The position numbers and the translations under genes were made by a program. This document shows positions 1-53,610 of a stretch of DNA of 64,000 bases, in pieces. The stretch covers positions 78,566,453 through 78,630,452 of the forward strand of contig CM049311.1 in the NCBI GenBank assembly GCA_026874595.1, given 5' to 3'. Within the stretch, counting starts at the first letter, position 1. Every line of letters begins with the position of its first letter. Under the pieces are notes generated by a model. It did no database searches, was not told where the DNA came from, and was given only the letters and a program-made list of their open reading frames with translations. The stretch comes from Sipunculus nudus. Lineage: Eukaryota > Annelida > Sipuncula > Golfingiida > Sipunculidae.

Positions 1-645
1 TCAGTATAGTCTCACCAAGGGTCTCATTTTATGTTAGGCTTATTCCAGCAAATTATGCTTGAGCTAGGTATAAAACAGTACAGCTCTTTGTCATACCATC
101 CTGAAAGTCAGTTTTCACCAGACATTAAAAAACATGATCAGGACTTATTGTTATGACACAGAGAAAGACTGGGATAAAGGAATTGACCTATTGCTGTTTG
201 CTGTCAGAGGATCCTTTCAAGAGTCCTTGGGGTTCAGTCCCTTTAAACTAGTTTTTGGACACTCAGTTCGCGGTCCATTGAAACTGCTTAAAGAAAACCT
301 CTGTGTGAAAATCCTGATTCTCTTAGTTTGTTGCAGTATGTCCCAGACTTTCGCATTAATCTACAAAATGCTTGTGAGATTGCAAAGTCAAATCTAAAAT
401 ATGCACAAAGTAAAATGAAGTATGACAGGCACTGTGTAAGTAAGACGTTTGAGCCTGGTGAAAAGGTCTGTGCCTTACTTCCCATCCCTGACAGACCTCT
501 GCAAGCTAAGGATTTTTGTCCTTACATTGTTGACAAAAATCAGTGATTTAATTTACATACTGTTGACACCAGATAGACGTAAGGAGAAACAACTTTGCTA
601 TGATAACATGTTGAAACCATATTATGACAGAAATAGCTACTGATT
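1..645 (+). pseudogene. Gypsy-type retrotransposon integrase remnant (core end plus GPY/F region)
   Basis: This is the second half of a retroelement integrase, the enzyme that inserts element cDNA into chromosomes. It is cut off by the left window edge. Translating in shifting frames gives the typical succession: a degenerate strand near QGSHFM, LGIKQYSSLSYHPESQ, then LLFAVRGSFQESLGFSPFKLVFGH and RGPLKLLKENL, a SKMKYDRH basic stretch, LLPIPDRPLQAKDFCPYIV (GPY/F-type chromodomain-proximal region) and PDRRKEKQLCYDNMLKPYYDR. The aspartate expected before the QG of the core strand reads histidine, and the GALERFH helix that carries the catalytic glutamate is not recognisable. At least two frame changes (near 330-400 and 450-540) break it. 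It lies directly upstream of RT sequence, an order unlike ordinary Gypsy elements. Family assignment is by motif recognition; the inactive state is certain. Confidence 0.85.
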
Positions 646-664
646 GTAAGTGTGATGTAGACAT

Positions 665-1150
665 TCAGTGTGGAACAGTTCGATTAAAAAACTCAGACGT
701 GCTTAACAACCTGGATGCCAAACTGTCACACCTTACCGCAAAACAACAACAAGACCTCAAGAACCTGCTGCGGAATTATGAACATTTGTTTAGTGACATT
801 CCAACGCGGACTAACATATTGTGCCATTACATCGATGTTGGCGAGGCAAGTGCAGTCAATAACATTCATATAGACTGAATCCAGAAAAGCAAAAGTATCT
901 ACAGGATGAGATTCAATATTTGCTGCCCATTGATTTTATTGAACTTAGTAACAGTAACTGGAGTTCACCATGTATTCTTGTGCCACAACCTGATGGAAGT
1001 TACCGTATGTGCACAGATTATCGAAAACTGAACTCTGTCACCAAGACTGACAAGTTCCCGATTCCGAGGATCGATGATTGTATTGATAGAGTCGGTGGCT
1101 CCAGATATGTTTCCATGTATAACTTGCTAAAGGATTCTGGCAAGTTTATG
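665..1150 (+). pseudogene. Gypsy-type reverse transcriptase N-terminal remnant
   Basis: This continues the element downstream of the integrase. From about 690 it encodes the pre-RT linker (LNNLDAKLSHLTAKQQQDL, then NYEHLFSDIPTRTN and HYIDVGEA), which in Gypsy pol precedes the fingers of reverse transcriptase. After a stop at 876-878 the frame changes, and 920-1130 gives SNWSSPCILVPQPDGSYRM, CTDYRKLNSVTKTDKFPIPR and IDDCIDRVGGSRYVSMYNLL, the canonical first RT motifs. The catalytic YxDD palm motif is absent: the sequence jumps from just after the LLKG-like position to the last part of RNase H, so several hundred codons are deleted near 1135-1165. It is defective and ancient, as shown by stops and frame changes. 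Confidence 0.88.
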
Positions 1151-1159
1151 TTACTTTAT

Positions 1160-1340
1160 CAGTCAAGCCGATCATTGTCTTCAGTGATCACAATCCCCGC
1201 ACGTTCATGAACAAGTTGAAGTCTAAAAATCAAAGATTGTTGAGATTGAGTTTGTTTTAACAGGATTACAACCTTGAAATCAGACACATTAAAGGAAAAG
1301 ACAAGGTACTTACTGATTGCTCATCAAGATGTTTATGAAA
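1160..1340 (+). pseudogene. Gypsy-type RNase H C-terminal remnant
   Basis: In the frame reading through 1177, the sequence gives SDHNPRTFMNKLKSKNQRLL, then a stop, QDYNLEIRHIKGKDKVLTDC and SSRC. This is the usual end of the RNase H domain in Gypsy pol, where the HIKGKxNxxxDxLSR segment carries the last acidic residue. A TAA near 1258 interrupts it. After SSRC the reading frame ends and about 120 bp of non-coding sequence leads to the polypurine tract, so this is the end of pol in this element. With integrase lying upstream of RT, nothing is missing after RNase H, which supports the unusual domain order. Confidence 0.8.
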
Positions 1341-1454
1341 TGTTGTAACAAATGTTTACGTAATGTTGTAAATAAGATGATTTTGGAGGTATTGTAAAGA
1401 TTTAGTGATTGTGATCGCAAAAGGAAAGTTTTCCGAGAAACCTTTCTTTTTTTA

Positions 1455-1690
1455 CAGGAGGGGGAGTGTTACAGATGCCTGTTTTATTGTGAGCTGTTTA
1501 AATGTCTCTTTTGTTGTGCGCTGTTGGCATTCTGATTCGTGTTTAAATTGGGTTAAAATTGATAGGGTTCTGAGAATTTCTTAGATCAGTGGGGAGTGAA
1601 TTCAAGAACTATAGGGCTATTAACTTTAACTGTTTGAAAATTTTGGTAATATAGGCAAATTTTCACTAGCTGACTCTACAGGGTGCGCAA
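1455..1690 (+). mobile_element. Polypurine tract and start of 3' LTR of the Gypsy-type element
   Basis: A purine run (aggagggggag, 1457-1466) is followed at 1467 by TGTTACAGATGCC. TGTTAC is the same LTR start seen in the complete LTR at 42583, and the next bases (TGCC, then a T-rich stretch and ATTGTG) also correspond. Plus-strand DNA synthesis primes from such a tract. The LTR's 3' end (expected GTAACA) was not found before the (TA)n tract at 1696, so it is truncated or has diverged; the right boundary given is arbitrary. Confidence 0.6.
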
Positions 1691-1695
1691 ATGCC

Positions 1696-1757
<62 letters not shown>
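1696..1757. repeat. (TA)n microsatellite
   Basis: About 60 bp of nearly pure TA dinucleotides with a few TAAA/TTTA interruptions; self-complementary and prone to slippage. Confidence 0.97.
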
Positions 1758-2240
1758 GTTTGCGGACAATCATGACAGGGAACTTTCTAAATGATACAGA
1801 GCATGAAGTGCATGTTGTATTGGAAGCGGTATTTTTTCAGCCCAATACAAGTGCCTACTGAGACTTGTATTCACAGCTAGAACTTGACGGTGCAGTTTGA
1901 GTATTAGCACGAGAGGAAAACAGATATATGTTGCTATAGTTGTAATTATCAAATAAGTTCAGTTTCCATGCCAACCGACATCAGCGGAAGTGTAGGCAAC
2001 ATTGAGAAAAAGAGTTTTAGTCGCATATTCAAAAGTTGCAACAGGCGCCATGGATAATAATCTATATATGACTCATTAATCATAGCGGTCATTAATAGAT
2101 TACCCGTCCATGTGTTAGTGTTTCATTTTATTTGTCATCAGACTCTGTGCAAGATACCTTTAAAGGTTAGTTTTAAATGTGGTGGTAATTTGGTTTAGGA
2201 GATCCGGCCGTGGACGTTTGACACAAAATGTGAATTGACC

Positions 2241-2287
<47 letters not shown>

Positions 2288-5200
2288 GAAATCAAATATG
2301 TTTACCAACAATTTTCTTCACATTATTATAATTAAAAATCGAATGTTATCGTGTAATCAGCTAGTATTTTAATCATAAAGAACGAGGGAGCCTTGATTGA
2401 CTAAAAATCAATATGGGATTAAATAGAACTGTTTTTTACATTGCTCATGATCAATTATCCGAACATAATAGTTTGCTTCAGACCGGCGAATAACCATGCA
2501 CAGTTTTACTCACAATTATCATAATTAGAATTGTAAATTTGATGATAGCTCAGTTCAGACATACGGCTGTAAGACCCTTGTTTGTCATCTGTTCGAGTGT
2601 TGCAGTCAAACCCAAGCCATTCGAGACCAAGTCCGAGGCATGATTTTCAAGTTCAAGATCACCGTATTCGATTTTCTGTTTTCTGAAGACGGAGTCCAAG
2701 TCCGACTCCAGGTCCAGTAAAAATATTTTTATTATTATAACAAACACTTTTATTATAAACAAACATGCACGTTTTAATTCACATAATTTACTTAACTAAA
2801 CCTTATTTATGTGTTCTTATTTTAATTAAGAGCTGTTAATAATTATTTCATATCAGTGTGCTGATAGTTTGTTGCCAAAGCTATACGTTACATTTTCAAT
2901 TTTTTTTGCATCCAGTGAACTGCACCCTTATTTCTCGCGTCTGTGTCCGTGTCCAGGACCTTCATATTCAAGTACTTTCCCTGGAAAAGTGCACTCGAGT
3001 CCGACACGTGTTGTAAATCACGTTGTGTGGGCGTCTGAAGAAAAACATAGCAATAGATACCGCACAGTCAGCTCAATAAGCAGACGAATATTGCGCAGGT
3101 CACCGGTTCATCGGAGAAGGTAAAAATCTGCAAGTTTCGCAAATCAATCCAATATCTTAACATTGTCTGGCAGTAAGCTTCCCCAAAGGTATTTAACATG
3201 AAAAACTATGTTTGTGTGATGCGGACCTTTGTCTTGGACACTGTTTAGTGGAAAATAAAATTTATCCTCACTTTCAAAGAATAGTGTTTGGTCTGCAGGA
3301 TATTATTAAATTTCAAATAAATCTTCACTATTTGTCATTTTTATCCATTTTTTATTTTGTGCGGAGTAATAATAAGATCAAACAGGACACAAAGACAGTA
3401 ATAAATACTGCAATATAGCACTGAAGTTGCCCGAAGGCACATTCTACGCGTAAAAATGGTTTGATGGCCCCTGAATTTTTCTTATCCTATATCGACGAAT
3501 AATTGTTTGGGAGCGGTATTTTATTTGACACAGCGGCAGACTATAGTAGCCTGAGACATATCACTTACACTTGAATAAGACAAATTCTTGTTCAAGTTTG
3601 AAAAGCAGTTTAACAAATACTTACATGTTGCTTTATATTTTTCATCAAACCTTAAGATGTTTTTAATTAAAATAGTGGCGGCGCTGTTTGAAGCTCCATT
3701 CTCGACATCAGTGATCTTTTTATAATAAATCATTTTGCGTGATAATTTAAGATTCATGATTTTTTTTAAAGGATTTTGTTGGAATAAATAAAATGACCTT
3801 CATAGCACAGGATTACCGAGATGAATATATTATTGAAACAAAACGATTTAAATTATTTATTAAGCCAAGCGTCTCTGCAGATAGGCCAATATGGCAATAT
3901 GGCAAAAAATGCAATGCAGTGCATCTGTGACTTGTTTGCAAACTTGCCTGAAAACCCACACACAGGCATAGAGACTTATATTCAGTAGTTTCTATGTAGC
4001 AAAACTCGAAATAACACAACAAACCTAAAATTTAAAGCCTTAAGAGGAATAATATAGACTGCACATATGTCAGTTTATATTGTATCTCTTTCTTTACTAT
4101 TTCCAATTATCTTACGGATTAGACAAGCCAATCCCCGACATGAGTATCCATCTTTTTTGAGTGCTTACTTTACGTTATCCCATGAGCAGTTGTTATGTGT
4201 AGCTGTTTTTTTTTTTTGTTTTTTTTTTTTATTTTTGTGAAAATTACCACTGACTGCCATAATTGGGTCTGAAATTTGGTGATCCACAAACTCTAATCTC
4301 AGATTTTTAAAATTAATTGTATTTCTTTAATATAGCTTATTAGTGTAATTTAATCAATGATATTTTATATCCTTATTGTTAACTAGCTACATATATATAC
4401 CCAAGGTGTCCCTTGTCCTTTTAAAAGCTTTTTCGAGCTGAAAAAAAAAAATCCCCTAAAACACATAGGCAAAGGTTGATTGAATAGAGCTGAGAATATA
4501 ACAGCTGAAAAAGTCAGCAATAAAAGTCTCTTAGGGCAAAACACTCCACGATATATATATATATAATGAAAGGAGCAGACATAGGTGCCTAAGGGGACAG
4601 ACGACGCGTAATTACAAGTATGTCCAGAGATACGTCTTTTTAAGAGAGACCTGCCTCAGACTTTTGTTAATAATAAAATCGAGGCTGATTTATGAGAGCA
4701 TGTCTAGGTAAGCCGCTGAACATTTATATAAGCAATTGATGTAATTTATTATGTTTCCTTTATAGATTTAAAAATAACAGGTGTTTTTCCATCCCGATGA
4801 ACTGAGCCAGTTCGTATTTATTAAATATCTGCTTCTATACCAATGGGGGAAACCTTTTTAAACGAACATCCTTACATTCGTTATAGGTGTATTTATTGTC
4901 TATATTGTTAAACTGGTATATATATTGCCTTAAATATCCCTGAATGATAGAGTAATAAGAATAAATTGATTGAAGTTTCAAACTCTTAAATAAAGCAGCG
5001 GAAATCATCATGCATCGTCTTTTGATTTTATCGGAAGACGACCCCCTCTCGCCGGAAGCACTCTGTCTCAGGATAATAACAGTCTTGCTGCGATGGGTTA
5101 TAAATTAATGTTCTTTGTGAACAAGGGTAATACGGGCATATAAAGGAATAATACCGATGGGTCCCACCTGTGAAGGAGCTCTGCGCGTAGGTCTTTATTT

Positions 5201-21195: not shown

Positions 21196-24100
21196 TACAA
21201 GACAGGTGGTGTCACCTACATTGACTTTTGCAGTGTGTGCACCTGCTTATTTCTACAGAGGAATATGATACATCAGCCTAAATTTAGGCATGTTTATACA
21301 TATTGGGTAGCTTTATAGGGTACAAGACTGGTGGCGCCACCTACAATAATTTTTGCACAGTGTATGTCCTTGCTTTTTTCACAGGAGGTGTTTGACATAT
21401 CAGTCTGACATTGGGCATATGTATATATCTCTTCGTTGTTTATAAGACTGGTGGTGCCAGCTACAATCATTGTATCCGCCAAAACAGAGTTTTGCGGATA
21501 CTATGTTTTCAGTCGAACGCCGACGCTGCCGCCATGGCCCGAAGGGTTTCCGGAGAACTCCTCCATAACCACAGGGCAGAATTTTTTAAAATTCACAATT
21601 ATGATCGGTCACATGTGAACTGTGGCGCCATCATTTTTGGTTGACCTCTGACCTTTCTTCTCTGCCCAGCATCCATTTGTGGGTCTGTTTCCACACATAA
21701 CCCGCATATCTCGGGAACCGTTTGACCAATAAGGCTAAAGATTCTGCACAAATGTAGCCCTTGGAAAGCTTTATAACATACACTAAAAAATGGTGGCGCC
21801 ACCTGCAACCATTTTTGCACAGCGTCCATCTGTTCATCTGCCTTGGAATAAAAACATTCATATCTCTGCATTGGTTGGACTTATCCACCTGAAATTTTGC
21901 ATGTGTATACATCCTGGACAACTTTCTATATTTTATGACAGGTGGCGCCACCTACATTCACGTTTAAGCTGCAGACATCCAAGCTCATATCTTGGGAACC
22001 ATTTGACCAGTTGGGCCAAAATTTTGCATGTGTATAGATCTCCCATAGTTCTTTATCATACGCAAAACTGGTGGTGCAACCTGCAACCATTTTTGCACAG
22101 CGTCCATCTGTTCATCTGCCTTGGGATAAAATCACTCATATCTCGGCAGTGGTTTGACATATCTGCCTAAAATTTTGCAGGTTTATACATCTTGGACAGC
22201 TTTCTAGGTTTTTATGACAGGTGGCACTACCTACATTCACTTTTACTCTGCAGACATCCAAGCTCATATCTCGGGAACCGTTTGACCGATTAGGCCAAAC
22301 TTTTGCATTTGTATAGATCTCACATAGCTCTTTATCATAGGCAAAACTGGTGGCGCCACCTGCGACCATGTATGCACAGCGTCCATATGTTTATCTGCCT
22401 TGGGATAAAATCACTCATATCTCGGCAGTGGTTTGACTTATCCATCTGAAAATTTGCAGGTTTATACATCCTGGACAGCTCTCTTGATTTTATGTCAGGT
22501 GGCACCACCTACATTAGGTTTACTCTGCAGACATCCAAGCTCATAACTCGGGAACAGTATGACCGATTTGGGCAAACGTTTGCTTGTTTATAGATCTCAC
22601 ATAGCTCTTCATCATAGGCAAAACTGGTGGCGCCACCTGCAACCACTTATGCACAGTGTCCATCTGTTTATCTGCCTTTGGATAAAATCACTCATATCTC
22701 AGAAGTGGTTTGACTTATCCACCTGAAATTTTGCAAGTTTATATATCCTGGACAGCTTTCTTGATTTTATGACAGGTGGCACCACCTACATTTACGTTTA
22801 CTCTGCAGACATCAAAACTCATATCTCGGGAACTGTTAGACCGATTGGGCCAAAAGTTTGCTTTTGTATAGATCTCACATAACTCTTTTTCATAGGCAAA
22901 ACTGTGGCGCCACCTGGATAAAATCACTCATATCTCGGCAGTGGTTTGACATATCTGCCTAAACTTTTGCAGGTTTATACATCTTGGACAGCTTTCTCGG
23001 TTTTTATGACAGGTGGCACTACCTACATTCACTTTTTCTCTGCAGACATCCAAGCTCATATCTCGGGAACCGTTTGACCGATTGGGCCAAACTTTTGCAT
23101 TTGTATAGATCTCACATAGCTCTTTATCATAGACAAAACTTGTGGCGCCACCTGCAACCATGTATGCACAGCGTCCATATGTTTATCTGCCTTGGGATAA
23201 AACACTCATATCTCGGCAGTGGTTTGACTTATCCACCTGAAAATTTGCAGGTTTATACATCCTGGACAGCTCTCTTGATTTTATGTCAGGTGGCACCACC
23301 TACATTAGGTTTACTCTGCAGACATCCAAGCTCATATCTCGGGAACAGTATGACCGATTTGGGCAAACGTTTGCTTGTGTATAGATCTCACATAGCTCTT
23401 CATCATAGGCAAAACTGGTGGCGCCACCTGCAACCACTTATGCACAGTGTCCATCTGTTCATCTGCCTTTGTATAAAATCACTCATATCTCAGAAGTGGT
23501 TTGACTTATCCACCTGAAATTTTTCAGGTTTATACATCCTGGACAACTTTCTCGATTTTATGACAGGTGGCACCACCTACATTTACGTTTACTCTGCAGA
23601 CATCAAAGCTCATATCTCGGGAACTGTTAGACCGATTGGGCCAAAAGTTTGCTTTTGTATAGATCTCACATAACTCTTTTTCATAGGCAAAACTGTGGCG
23701 CCACCTGGATAAAATCACTCATATCTCGGCAGTGGTTTGACATATCTGCCTAAAATTTTGCAGGTTTTTACATCTTGGACAGCTTTCTCGGTTTTTATGA
23801 CAGGTGGCACTACCTACATTCACTTTTACTCTGCAGACATCCAAGCTCATATCTCGGGAACCGTTTGACCGATTTGGGCAAACTTTTGCTTGTGTATAGA
23901 TCTCACATGGCTCTTCATCATAGGCAAAACTGGTGGCGCCACCTGCAACCACTTATGCACAGTGTCCATCTGTTCATCTGCCTTTGGATAAAATCACTCA
24001 TATCTCAGAAATGGTTTGACTTATCCACCTGAAATTTTGCAGGTTTATACATCCTGGAGAGCTTTCTTGATTTCATGACAGGTGGCACCACCTACATTTA

Positions 24101-25080
24101 CGTTTACTCTGCAGACATCAAAGCTCATATCTCGGGAACTGTTAGACCGATTGGGCCAAAAGTTTTCTTTTGTATAGATCTCACATAAATCTTTTTCATA
24201 GGCAAAACTGTGGCGCCACCTGGATAAAATCACTCATATCTCGGCAGTGGTTTGACATATCTGCCTAAAATTTTGCAGGTTTATACATCTTGGACAGCTT
24301 TCTCGGTTTTTATGACAGTTGGCACTACCTACATTCACTTTTACTCTGCAGACATCCAAGCTCATATCTCAGGAACCGTTTGACCGATTGGGCCAAACTT
24401 TTGAATTTGTATAGATCTCACATAGCTCTTTATCATAGGCAAAACTGGTGGCGCCACCTGCAACCATGTATGCACAGCGTCCAAATGTTTATCTGCCTTT
24501 GGATAAAATCACTCATATCTCAGAAGTGGTTTGACTTATCTGCCTAAGATTTGCAGGTTTATACATCCTGGACAGCTCTCTTGATTTTATGTCAGGTGGC
24601 ACCACCTACATTAGGTTTACTCTGCAGACATCCAAGCTCATATCTTGGGAACAGTATGACCGATTTAGGGAAAAGTTTGCTTGTGTATAGATCGCACATA
24701 GCTCTTCATCATAGGCAAAACTGGTGGCGCCACCTGCAACCACTTATGCACAGTGTCCATCTGTCAGCCTTTGGATAAAATCACTCATATCTCAGAAGTG
24801 GTTTGACTTATCCACCTGAAATTTTGCAGGTTAAAACATCCTGGACAGCTTTCTCGATTTTTTTTTAGATCTCACATAACCCTTTTTCATAGGCAAAACT
24901 TTGGCGCCACCTGCAACCACTTATGCACAGCGTCCATCTGTTCATCTGCCTTGGGATAAAATCACTCATATCTCAGCAGTGGTTTGACTTATCCACCTGA
25001 AATTTTGCAGGTTTATACATCCTGGACAATTTTCTCGATATTATGACAGGTGGCACCACCTACATTCACGTTAACGCTGC
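21196..25080. repeat. 278-bp dimeric satellite array with GGTGGCGCCACC core
   Basis: GCAAAACTG anchors fall at 22062, 22341, 22618, 22896, 23133, 23409, 23687, 23924, 24202, 24439 and 24715, that is spacings of 276-279 with recurrent 237-bp units that lack one 41-bp segment after CGCCACCTGG. Each unit is itself two related halves of about 140 bp: each starts GGTGGC-CC-ACCT(G/A)CA, contains CTCATATCTCGG and GTTTGAC, and ends near a TATA(C/G)ATC stretch. Most units hold the 12-bp palindrome GGTGGCGCCACC. The first units (21196-21480) are the most diverged. Small open frames recur in each unit on the minus strand, but unit lengths are not multiples of three and no long frame forms. Confidence 0.93.
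21471..21500. other. Hairpin in D2 array flank
   Basis: GTATCCGCCAAAAC and GTTTTGCGGATAC form 13 base pairs with one bulge around a 3-4 base loop. The GCGGATAC word also occurs in both tails (17569, 25173). Confidence 0.75.
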
Positions 25081-47530: not shown

Positions 47531-47707
47531 CTCACGTGGATTAAGAAGAAGAAGAAGAAATTTATTGTAGAAAAAGGCCTTGTGGCCCATGGTACAAATA
47601 TAAACATAAATAAATGCAATTGAACAATAAACATGTAACATGATAACATGCAGTTAATACATACATATAAACATGGTTGTGTTACCTGCTGTTGTGTTGT
47701 TTCATAA

Positions 47708-49283
47708 TCATAAAGTTTCTGTCACATCAAGTTCTTTCTTTAATTTGTTAACCTGAAATAAATATTTAGCTACATTCAAAAGGACATTAAAAGACAGAGT
47801 TTTTAATAGCTTAATTAAACCATATATATTTTTAGGAATTTCCTTGAAAGATGTAAAAAATTCTTTTCTGATATTTTCATATCTAGAGCAATAAAATAAA
47901 ACATGTATCTCATCTTCAACCTCATCTTGGTCACACATTTTACAGATCCTCATTTCTCTGGGTACATTATATCTCCTTCCAATTTCAATTTCATAGCAAT
48001 GGTCACTTAATCTAAATTTTGATGAAGCTTGTCTGTATACAAATGCCATATTATATAAATATTTTTCTGGTTCTATTGCTGATTTAATTTCACTATATAT
48101 ACTAAGCTTAGATTTACTTTGGATTTCTGCTAACATTTCTTGCTGGCTATTGTCTTTAACCCTTTGTACAAACATATTCACAAACATTTTTCTGTCACCT
48201 ACACTTTGCTCAAGCCATACAAAACTAAAACCATATCTGTTTAACAGCAGTTTTATATCTGTCACCCATGTGCTTCTTCCTATATCATCTAATTGTTTGA
48301 GAGTGTTATAACATAATCTTGGGTATCTAGAATTTTCCATTGAGATAATTTTTAACCAATAACTTATACATCTTTTAAAATATATACAGTGTAGAGGGTA
48401 CCTTCCACATTCTAATATGGCAGCAGTATTTACTGTTTTTTTACTCACACCAAGGAGTTGCTTACAAACACGTGATTGCATACATTCTATTTTTGGTCTT
48501 GGAATGGACCCCCATATTTCTGAACCATAAAGTAGTGAAGGGACTATAACTTTCTCAAAAATAGTCAAAATGACTGATAACGACATTTTACCACATTTTG
48601 ATTCACAACTCTTTATAATATTTAAACCTTTACTTGTTTTCAACATAAGTATATTTAAATATTGGTTCCATTTCAGTGATGAAGAGAACATAACTCCTAA
48701 ATATGTATAACTATTAACATTTAAAAGCTTTTTACCCTTGAAATACCATTTCTCATTTTGCTTTACCGTTCCTCCCCTTCTAAATACCATAGATTTAGTT
48801 TTATCAATATTGACTTGCACACCCCATCTGTCACAGAATTTTTCTAAAATGTTCAATAAGCTTTGAAGTCTTCCAACTGAGTCTCCAATGAGACAAATGT
48901 CATCTGCAAAGGCCAAAATATTTATATCTCTGTGTTGTAATGACATCTGAATACCAGGAAGCTGTGTTTCATAAACCATTTCAAAGAATGTGTTAAGATA
49001 TAAAATAAATAATATTGGGCTTAATAAGCAACCTTGTCTTGTACCATTAAAACATTTAAATTCTTCCGTTAAACCACTGTCTACCTTGACACAACAAGTT
49101 AACTTTTCAAACATGGATTTTAATACCTTAATTATGTTTCCATGAATCCCTATTTTAATTAATCTGTATAAAAGTAACTTATGTGAAATTCTATCAAAAG
49201 CTTTGCTAAAATCGACAAAAACACAATAAACCCTCCCTTTTTTCTTGCTTAAATATTTCTGTATTATTAATATTATTATTTTG
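47708..49283 (-). pseudogene. LINE ORF2, reverse transcriptase and C-terminal zinc-knuckle half
   Basis: The open frame runs 537 codons from an ATG at 49321, but its first 13 residues come from the inverted 5' UTR; LINE sequence starts near residue 14. Reverse transcriptase motifs are intact: FVDFSKAFD (residues 35-43, motif A), NGTRQGCLLSP (92-102, motif B) and FADD (138-141, catalytic palm). RT copies LINE RNA into the nicked target. The RT is followed by a thumb/connection region and a C-terminal C-x2-C-x9-H-x4-C knuckle (C460, C463, H473, C478). The frame ends at 47708 and a 160-bp 3' UTR follows. The absence of stops over 1.5 kb suggests a fairly young insertion. Fingers motifs upstream of motif A are absent, so no active enzyme could result. 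Clade undetermined. Confidence 0.93.
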
Positions 49284-49415
49284 AGCGCCACCTGCTGGGG
49301 TGACTGAAATACGTGCTTCACATCGGCTCCCAGAAAATATTCTGATATTTGGATAGAATACAGAGCTGGTCATATATAGTGACTTATTATATGTTTGTGA
49401 GTACTCAAGTACGAA
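49284..49415 (+). promoter_or_regulatory. LINE 5' UTR with CTCF-like consensus
   Basis: About 130 bp between the inversion junction and the first ORF1 ATG. AGCGCCACCTGCTGG at 49284-49298 matches the animal CTCF core consensus on one strand and lies at the extreme 5' end of the element. As twin priming copies to the RNA 5' end, this may be the true transcript start region. Function is inferred only. Confidence 0.45.
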
Positions 49416-50406
49416 ATGGGAGTTGGCATTACGGTCTGGAAGGCCAGGATAGGCTGCTACGCTCAACCGAGAATCCGAGAAAAGTTTCGGCCAGAGACCA
49501 TAACACTGACAGGTATGTCCTTGACCTTGCGTCTTGTTGTATCCATGACGATACTGCTAACAATGTCTGGAGACGTTGAGTTGAACACCGGTCCCCCAAA
49601 ACAAACAGGCAATAAGGCAAAAAGTTCCAGTGTACAAAGCACAATACTGGAACACACGCGTGTTCTGAGAAGCAGCACGACAGACGGCTCACAGGAACCT
49701 GATTGCATGGTGACAGAACAGGTGAGCGATAATGGGTCTATCGACCAACTGGCTGCCACCGGGGACAGTGTCACCGGTAGTACTTGTAGTTCAACACAAA
49801 ACCTAGGCCCCAAAGATACTGATAGCATTTTGATCAGACTTGAGAAACAAGTACTTGAGCTACAAGGACAGGTAAAGTCACTGACTAAAGAAAACTAGTA
49901 GGAAAACTAGTAAAATTAGTAGGATAGAGGATCAAATGAGAAGGGACAATTTAGTTGTACATGGAATACCAGAAGATTCTAAAGAATCATGGGATATGTC
50001 TGAAAACAAAGTGAGGAAGGTGATGAAAGACAAATTAAAAATTGAAAATTCAGAGGAAATTGAAATTGAAAGAGCGCATAGAATAAGGCCAAAACGGAGT
50101 TCTAAAACTAGACCTATAATCGTTAAATTCAGTAAATTTAAGTGTAAACAAACAGTTCTGGTTGCAGCAAGGAAAGAACTAAAGGGATCTGGCAGTGACA
50201 TAAAGTTTACAGAAGATTTCAGTGATCGTGTGCGGCAGATTAGAAAGGTTCTTGGCAATGAATTAGAGAATGCGCGGAAAGCTGGAAATACTGCATACTT
50301 GTCCTATGACAAACTGATCATAAACGGTAAAACGTACAAGTGGGATGAAGACACAAACTCAGTCGTTGATATTCTCGAGATGAGGTCACGTGTGAATGAT
50401 GAATAG
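49416..50406 (+). pseudogene. LINE ORF1 (2A-like leader, coiled coil, RRM-type RNA-binding domain)
   Basis: The ATG at 49416 opens a frame of 160 codons; after a frame change around 49890-49930, in a repetitive AAAACTAGTAG stretch, the remainder reads to the TAG at 50404. Residues 36-50 are hydrophobic and run into SGDVELNTGP (51-60), which resembles the ribosome-skipping 2A motif but has Thr where NPGP has Pro. Residues 133-160 form a leucine-rich heptad segment (coiled coil). From 49936 the sequence has the L1-ORF1p-like order: MRRDNLVVHGIPED, IEIERAHRI, RPIIVKF and ARKELKGS, then YDKLIINGKTYKWDE. Such proteins bind LINE RNA as multimers. Other in-frame ATGs (residues 34, 44, 50) could also start it. 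Confidence 0.88.
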
Positions 50407-51378
50407 GGTTTGGGCCGTGGCCCAGGAGAATATGTGAACAATTTAATACAATATGAGAATAACAGATATACATTACCTACAAAAGAAACGAATAATACAG
50501 ATAATCTTAGAAATAATGTAAATACAGACAGAAATTTTAAAATTGTATCCTGGAATTGTCAAGGACTTAAATACAAACAACAAAGTAATGAAATGAAAAA
50601 CTTACTGATAAATTATGATATCATTAGTTTGTGTGAAACTTGGGGTGCATATGATTCAGAATTTGATGATATGATGATGGGATTTACATGCTTTTCTAAA
50701 ACACGCAAAAAGGCAGATAAAGGAAGAAATTCTGGTGGTGTATCTGTGTTTGTAAAAGATATATTTTGTACTTATGTTCATCGCATATATGATCATTTTC
50801 AAGACATGGTTGTACTCCTAATGAATGGTAGAATTATTGATATTGATAATAATATTATTATGATATTTACATATATATCACCAGATGGCTCACCAATATA
50901 CTTAGAACAAACAGATGGTATCAGTATTCTAGAAGAAAAATTATATATATTGAAAGCTAAATATCCAGATGCAAATGTATTTATAGCTGGAGATCTTAAT
51001 GCCAGAACTGGGAATATACAAGATTATATAAATCCATGTAAGGCAGATTCAGATATGATAAATGATCTTATTACAATTGAAAAAGATTCCATAAAAGAGC
51101 GTTGTTCTAAAGACAAAATAGTCAATAAATATGGAAGAATGTTACTTGATTTTTGCATAAGTAATAATCTCTGTATATTAAATGGTAGAACCATAAATGA
51201 TACTGAAGGTCAGTTCACATGTGTATCCTATAATGGTGCTAGCATTGTTGATTATATGGTATTATCAGTAGATATTATGCATTGTTTATCTGATTTTGAA
51301 ATATTAGATTTTGACTTGTCTGACCATTTTCCAATATGTTGTAGGTTCACTTGCACCAAACTGCACACATCATTGTAT
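50407..51378 (+). pseudogene. LINE ORF2, apurinic/apyrimidinic-type endonuclease half
   Basis: The frame continues directly from ORF1 after a single TAG, and runs open to the target-duplication boundary. All endonuclease landmarks are present: IVSWNCQG (Asn), SLCETWG (Glu), FTYISPDGSP, VFIAGDLNARTG (Asp and Asn), KYGRMLLDFC, FTCVSYNGASIVDYMV, and the terminal SDHFPI (Asp-His). This nuclease nicks the target to start reverse transcription. The first in-frame ATG (50593) lies after the SWNCQG motif, so a normal AUG start would lose the catalytic Asn. LINE sequence stops at 51378; the last codons of the open frame (to 51435) are flanking DNA. RT lies inverted at 47545-49283. Confidence 0.92.
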
Positions 51379-51391
51379 TCACGTGGATTAA

Positions 51392-52464: not shown

Positions 52465-53610
52465 TAGGTTTATATGCGTATTTGTTAACACTAGCTGCAG
52501 AAAGGCTCACGCCTTACATATGCACCATAGTTAACATGAGTTTAGAGGAAAGTTTAGTTCCTACAGATTTAAAACAGGCAAGAGTTACGCCAATTTATAA
52601 AGGGAAAGGCCCTGCGGATGATCCATGTAATTATCGCCCGATTTCTGTAAATTCACATATAGCTAAAATAATGGCAAAAGTTATTCACCAGCAGTTATAT
52701 TCATTTATTTAAATCGTATATCTAAGTAATCGGAATCAAGCTACTAAGTATAATGGATCAATTTCTGACTGTTCGCAGATTTCTATTAGAGTCCATCAAG
52801 GTTCTGTCCTCGGACCACTTTTATTCTTAATTTATATAAATGATGTTTGTAACATACCAACATTTAGTAACATTTGCCTATTTGCTGATGATACATGCTT
52901 ATACGTTTCTGGTCCCACTATTGAATCTATCACACAGAAAATTCAAGTTGATATTAATAGAATATCTGAATGGTTTCGAGTGAATAAACTCACGATAAAT
53001 ACAGAAAAATCCTACCTAATGGTCATCGGTTGTAGATTGTCTGACAGTTGTCTTACATGGAGAGCTCATATTAATAAACTTGCTTCCAAATTAAAACCTA
53101 AACTAGGCGCTCTCGCTCGTCTGATCAAAGTTTTACCTTCACAAGAACTCGTTCATATTTATATGACCACTATACAACCTTATATTGATTACGGTTTAAT
53201 CATTTGGGGCCATCAAAGCCGCAATATGAACGTTGTCCAGAAATTCCAGAATAGGGCTGCCCGTATAATTTCTGGGAATTATGATAAGAATACAGCTAGT
53301 TCAACATTGATATCAGCTATAAAATGGCAAAACATCAATCAAATATATTCATGTTTAAATGCCTTAAATGCCTTAAATGCCTCATGTTTAAATAGCACCT
53401 TGTTATCTTAATTATTTTTTAAAAACCCGATCTGAAATATACTCTTATAACACGAGATAATCTTGTCAAGTGAAAGTACTCACAGTTAGAACTGAATGGA
53501 TGCGAAAATCTTTTATTTATCAGGGACCGAAATTATGGAATTTGTTACCAGAAGCTTTTCGTAAGATAGATATTTTAGATAAGTTCAAAAAAAGATCTTA
53601 AGCAATATTC
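52465..53610 (+). pseudogene. Second LINE, internally deleted reverse transcriptase
   Basis: A different LINE from the twin-primed one. 52482-52712 encodes RT fingers (LKQARVTPIYKGKG, NYRPISVNSHIAKIMAKVIH). About 100 codons including motif A are deleted near 52712. From 52722 the frame reads QATKYNGSISDCSQ, HQGSVLGPLLFLIYIND (motif B; His for the usual Pro before QG) and LFADDTCLY (catalytic palm), then VNKLTINTEKS. A second deletion follows near 53030. Then come DSCLTWRAHINKL, LVHIYMTTIQPYIDYGLIIW and NRAARIISGNYD. 53487-53595 gives the usual LINE C-terminus with WMRKSFIYQGPKLWNLLPE. Stops and deletions make it inactive. It appears to belong to a Jockey/CR1-like group, but the clade is not certain. 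Confidence 0.9.

Follow-up and report, generated by a model that had tools for sequence, protein, structure and literature searches.

The LINE element at positions 47,532 to 51,391 of the window (the whole 64-kb stretch of DNA analysed here, C6:78566453-78630452 of the assembly) almost certainly arose in one retrotransposition event by twin priming. Twin priming itself is a known mechanism; what is added here is three natural cases, this one included, in a small and young LINE subfamily with a (TTC)n tail. A preliminary description of the locus had already interpreted it as a single twin-primed insertion of one family, and the order and orientation of the segments, the target-site duplication (TSD), the tail and the microhomology all support this interpretation. 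Two corrections are needed: the inversion junction contains a filler of 14 nt, and the subfamily includes two further inversions besides this one. That both halves belong to one family, how the segments are ordered and oriented, and where the boundaries, TSD, tail, microhomology, filler and missing 1,044 nt lie can be read directly from the DNA (Table 1).

Table 1. Parts of the window element, and structures of its young relatives. Positions are those of the window; ref, numbering on the full-length copy L011.
Feature	Position	Strand	Basis or remark
TSD, 3'-tail side	47532..47544	.	exact repeat of 51379-51391
Non-inverted 3' segment (putative first cDNA), ref 3147-4871	47545..49268	-	99.4% identity to L011; RVT_1
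(TTC)5 tail	47545..47559	-	sequence; same tail type in other young copies
Filler, 14 nt, at inversion junction	49269..49282	.	not in L011 on either side
Inverted 5' segment (putative second cDNA), ref 6-2102	49283..51380	+	98.7% identity to L011
ORF1, frame broken in window copy, 2A-like leader	49401..50406	+	Transposase_22
ORF2 N-terminal endonuclease part	50407..51378	+	Exo_endo_phos, 7.5e-11
TSD, inverted-5' side	51379..51391	.	exact repeat; 51379-51380 also the 2-nt second-priming microhomology
L009	inverted ref 6-4675, upright ref 4668-4871		8-nt overlap, 4-nt filler, microhomology TTA
L013	inverted ref 13-3290, upright ref 4672-4870		filler absent, microhomology AC
5'-inverted young copies			window, L009, L013; on three contigs (C6, C2, C5)
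Full-length young copies			L010, L011, L012, L014
5'-truncated young copies			L015-L018, L020-L026; L020 also lacks 710 bp internally

The two outer ends of the insertion carry exact copies of TCACGTGGATTAA (13 bp), as had been claimed. No third site was found in the 64-kb window with up to two mismatches tolerated. At this looseness 2.29 chance matches are expected, thus the evidence for a TSD is the exactness of the repeat and its placement at both outer ends, not its count. When 25-bp windows were drawn at random from the 64 kb and compared in about 4,000 pairs, three pairs shared a run of at least 13 bases. A TSD of 17 bp with one mismatch was considered and dropped, the extra bases being element sequence that resembles the flank by chance.

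Between the two repeats, the minus strand carries the reverse transcriptase (RT) half, with an RVT_1 profile match at E 5e-29. The ORF1/endonuclease half is on the plus strand and matches Transposase_22 (7e-05) and Exo_endo_phos. Boundaries were drawn against L011, a natural full-length copy on which the element runs from ref 6 to ref 4871. The 3' segment comprises the part of the RT that starts shortly ahead of motif A and runs to the C-terminus, followed by the 3' UTR and the tail; its edge is ambiguous at base 47544 in the alignment to L011. The inverted segment contains the RNA 5' end, the 5' UTR, ORF1 and the endonuclease. On the tail side, (TTC)5 is followed by the TSD. At the inner junction the order is the RNA 5' end (GAGCGCC...), the filler and ref 3147; the 5' end had been said to abut the RT half at about 49,280, which is right in position to within 3 bp but overlooks the 14 nt in between. 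The filler is AT-rich and resembles a slipped copy of the neighbouring AATAATA, suggesting that it arose by slippage. At the outer 5' junction, the target ...CACGTGA is joined to the complement of ref 2102, and 2 nt (GA) belong to both. Just past the insertion, on the plus strand at 52713-53411, lies a second RT fragment with a FADD motif, which looks unrelated.

We searched the assembly (1.43 Gb, 153 contigs) with the element DNA and obtained 44 matches, from the 40 of 364 first-look candidates that were scored. Both halves are represented in normal order, at 99-100% identity, in six young loci, which bears out the earlier claim that the halves are one family; these six include the inverted segment of L009 and one locus with only part of the 5' half. 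The halves are 1,044 bp apart in five of the six and 1,129 bp apart in the sixth, L014, in which ref 2816-2908 is tandemly repeated. Twenty loci of 8 kb each were aligned to L011. Non-inverted full-length copies, for which the preliminary description had proposed a search, do exist: L010, L011 and L012 align end to end. Compared with L011, the window element lacks ref 2103-3146 (1,044 bp), about residues 325-672 of ORF2 by arithmetic from the ORF2 start. In the ORF2 of L011 (1,192 aa), Exo_endo_phos covers residues 47-200 and RVT_1 residues 612-866; a weaker endonuclease match, under its cut-off, extends to residue 310. The gap therefore falls between the endonuclease and what we take to be RT motif A, as had been described, with the first part of the RT domain inside it.

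The size of the subfamily was estimated with a 3'-end query of 212 nt, for which 40 of 101 candidates were scored. Eighteen matches were at least 97% identical and the next best reached 88%; because of this gap, these 18, all with a 3' end that the query detects, were taken to be the young subfamily, and it is the gap that sets its size given the 61 unscored candidates. All 18 are the window copy or among the loci fetched. By their structure relative to L011, 4 are full-length, 11 are 5'-truncated and 3 are 5'-inverted, an inversion share of 3/18 (95% interval 4-41%). The flanks of the truncated copies contained no more element sequence (blastn, E 1e-5), a search that very short inverted scraps could escape. 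In the 15 uninverted copies, the longest sequence common to both ends was at least 12 bp in 11 and 7-9 bp in 4. These lengths include tail and microhomology bases, and among the 11, L014 and L026 lie in TA repeats and L018 in a local repeat. The uninverted copies are products of ordinary target-primed reverse transcription.

A 5'-end query of 219 nt returned 17 matches, with all 17 candidates scored. Seven of them, namely the three inversions (the window copy included) and the four full-length copies, are at least 97% identical, and their starts all lie within 8 nt; the intact family thus has the 5' end that the preliminary description had assigned to it. The ten others are older (80-86% identity). 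A check of eight of these ten, the two on C9 being left out, gave no further inversion-like arrangement: L019 and the two copies on C17 are normally arranged, and the 540-650 bp upstream of the remaining five (L029-L033) held no family sequence at E 1e-3. The first 32 nt are missing from L032 and the first 74 nt from L033. At G000:C9:44873649-44875327, the 5' ends of three older LINE copies follow one another at intervals of about 730 bp, a tandem array of 5' regions.

The two sister inversions repeat the anatomy of the window copy with other breakpoints (Table 1). All three carry TSDs, the longest outer-end repeat, ambiguous bases counted, being 14 bp in L009 and 13 bp in L013. The second-priming points differ (ref 2102, 4675 and 3290 in the window copy, L009 and L013), and so do the flanks. 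Microhomology at these points, counted by eye, is 2, 3 and 2 nt in the same order, which is weak for any single case. L013 sits in a multicopy repeat, and its joined flanks match 38 other site-spanning places (40 of 116 candidates scored); in the eight of these 38 examined, the target is uninterrupted and the TSD core occurs once. The preliminary description had also looked to an empty site of the window locus. None was found in the assembly: the joined flanks matched their own two flanks and partial repeats (27 of 27 candidates). In L009 and L013, which are independent inversions, the first cDNA extends about 200 nt from the 3' end, as far as ref 4668 and 4672, respectively; a stop for the reverse transcriptase at this place is possible.

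By analogy to the established L1 model, from which we take the order in which the strands are nicked, the use of RNA for the second priming and the way the cDNA ends are joined, the window element would have formed as follows. The LINE endonuclease would nick the plus strand of the window after ...GGATTAA, and the nicked 3' end would prime on the (UUC)n tail, from which the reverse transcriptase would copy about 1.7 kb as the first cDNA. The second strand would be cut 13 bp away, and its 3' end, ...CACGTGA, would anneal by 2 nt (GA/UC) within the same RNA at about 2102; a second cDNA primed there would extend to the RNA 5' end. Joining of the two cDNA ends with 14 nt of filler would leave 1,044 nt of RNA uncopied, and fill-in would generate the 13-bp TSD.

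The layout of the junctions is the one that twin priming predicts: the second cDNA begins, at its priming point, on the outer edge and finishes at the inner junction. Moreover, in the window copy, L009 and L013, the inverted segment lies 5' of the upright segment in the RNA, with a gap or a short overlap. Had a normal insertion been rearranged later, by DNA inversion or by deletion between its halves, the absence of 1,044 bp and the filler at the junction would be natural, as end-joining repair leaves such marks. However, the inverted segment has the TSD at its outer edge and the RNA 5' end at its inner end, and L009 and L013 show a like arrangement with other breakpoints, so that both breakpoints of a later inversion would have to hit both boundaries by chance, three times. 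We therefore regard a later rearrangement as very unlikely.

The opposite directions of the halves might also suggest two separate, adjacent insertions, but a single TSD pair surrounds both halves, the inner junction is tailless and the 5' half lacks both a 3' end and a tail; such a double event is barely conceivable. Finally, the analysis covered a single assembly, which leaves room for an artefact or a misjoin. A 13-bp TSD would not be expected at the ends of a chimera, and the same anatomy recurs at three loci on three contigs (C6, C2, C5), making this account extremely improbable. Weak points can be raised against twin priming: the assembly yielded no empty site for the window locus, the model does not explain the filler in the window copy, the 2-nt microhomology at one junction is weak when taken alone, and all three inverted cDNAs reach the RNA 5' end, unlike the shorter inversions of L1.

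In architecture the element is an APE-type LINE, L011 having an apurinic-type endonuclease followed by the RT in ORF2. The Transposase_22 match of ORF1 is over the cut-off in the window fragment and under it in L011 (0.0042). Among solved structures, which represent few LINE clades, the RT best matches L1 ORF2p (about 1e-36), then R2; a tail of (TTC)n in place of poly(A) speaks against placement in the L1 clade proper. No relatives were confirmed in viral contigs or prokaryote genome contigs and none were found in phages; 14 plasmid records gave distant RT matches, most of them annotated as group II intron type. In the assembly, COX1 frames of 577-578 aa occur on the small contigs C60, C61, C62, C66, C72, C74, C75 and C89 (twice in C89) and a frame of 489 aa on C123; these contigs are probably bacterial, perhaps from symbionts, plus the mitochondrion.

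ORF1 and ORF2 share one frame with a single TAG between them (window 50394-50460). The TAG is present in six of the seven young copies read (window, L009-L013), with TGG in L014, and TTG in the older L019. No in-frame ATG occurs from the TAG to the first endonuclease motif (WNCQG). A notably stable hairpin after the ORF1 stop was rejected, the region being no more stable than its shuffled versions, 77 of 200 of which fold equally well or better (z -0.23). Odon et al. reportedly surveyed 2A in LINEs in 2013. The ORF1 leader is 2A-like (window 49572-49595), with GDVELNPGP in seven of the eight copies read and DVELNTGP in the window copy, in which NTGP would be expected to stop recoding. The family thus resembles other LINEs whose ORF1 opens with a 2A-like leader, here one that ends in DVELNPGP, the window copy differing by its NTGP; PMC4981915 mentions that non-LTR retrotransposons contain 2A-like sequences.

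At the RNA 5' end, GCGCCACCTGCTGG (window 49285-49298) has a complement that exactly fits what we take to be a CTCF-like core, and this is the sole match in the window at up to one mismatch. GCGCCACCTGCTGG is kept in the older L029 and L019 and altered in L031. Elsewhere in the window, 21786-25039 contains tandem arrays whose periods are about 180-280 bp. Some of the units include GGTGGCGCCACCTGC, which has GCGCCACCTGC in common with the LINE 5' end; a similar motif flanks the older LINE copy in L033.

The three inversions share with L1 twin priming the TSD, the inverted 5' segment, the tailed normal 3' segment, the second-priming microhomology and the gap or short overlap. According to the parts of the L1 studies cited here, 639 of 2,068 human and chimpanzee L1 inserts are 5'-inverted (PMC2912911) and 298 of 1,634 in another set (PMC5668948), against 3 of 18 in this subfamily. 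The TSD lengths and microhomologies found here fit those of human and chimpanzee inverted L1, in which, in the same passages, microhomology is absent in 28 of 605 and about 70% have 2-5 bp (PMC2912911); most L1 inversions are said to have TSDs of 10-20 bp (PMC4245944). Extra nucleotides at the outer 5' junction, in 3.9% of inverted L1 (PMC2912911), are not directly comparable to the filler at the inner junction of the window copy; small insertions are described as frequent at L1 inversion junctions (PMC5668948). The overlap in L009 is as in germline L1, where overlapping cDNAs are given for 42% (44/106) of inversions (PMC12016303). Unlike L1, the window and sister copies have a (TTC)n tail, not poly(A).

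As to other LINEs, a passage of PMC4245944 reports inversions in cell culture for human L1 in human cells and for a single insert of zebrafish Nimb-2_DR in chicken DT40 cells, whereas another passage credits inversions to human L1 alone. Nimb-2_DR, with a TSD peak of about 12 bp in that source, is a non-L1 LINE with a 5' inversion, as the present family probably is, but it is represented by a single insert in cultured cells and the present family by natural copies, 3 of 18. In the part of the twin-priming literature consulted, the Nimb-2_DR insert is the one case not driven by mammalian L1, which does not establish absence from print; the parts seen of PMC2718515 and PMC5389967 name twin priming in the reference list only.

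The inverted cDNAs are 2,097 (window), 4,670 (L009) and 3,278 nt (L013) long and end at ref 6 or 13, the start range of the full-length copies, whereas long-read data give a median of 751 bp for inverted cDNAs of germline L1 (the part of PMC12016303 cited). None of 298 L1 inversion junctions fell within the first 590 bp (PMC5668948), although the breakpoint meant is not spelled out in the passage. The 5' end was reached by three of three inverted and four of 15 uninverted copies (Fisher 0.043); under the truncation rate of the 15, the probability that all three would reach it is 0.05. With n = 3, this is suggestive of an inverted cDNA that habitually reaches the RNA 5' end. A broader proposal is that twin priming in this family differs from that of L1, the second cDNA habitually running to the RNA 5' end; we consider this rather unlikely. 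If it were true, the second reverse transcriptase would perhaps be more processive, or only run-off ends would be joinable. Twin priming would then be one of the main sources of complete 5' ends in the genome, three of the seven 5' ends of the subfamily sitting in inversions, and it would be favoured when the first strand stops at a particular point close to the 3' end (4668 and 4672 in two independent copies).

All together, the TSDs, the microhomologies and the paralogous empty sites of L013 show that a LINE with a (TTC)n tail undergoes twin priming in nature, and that its rate is compatible with the one in L1. Ideas that link 5' inversion with L1 and with particular host cells must then widen. 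The three inversions also help to fix the RNA 5' end of the family, which seven copies place within 8 nt. With 18 copies, the subfamily is small and young enough for the fate of each copy to be counted.
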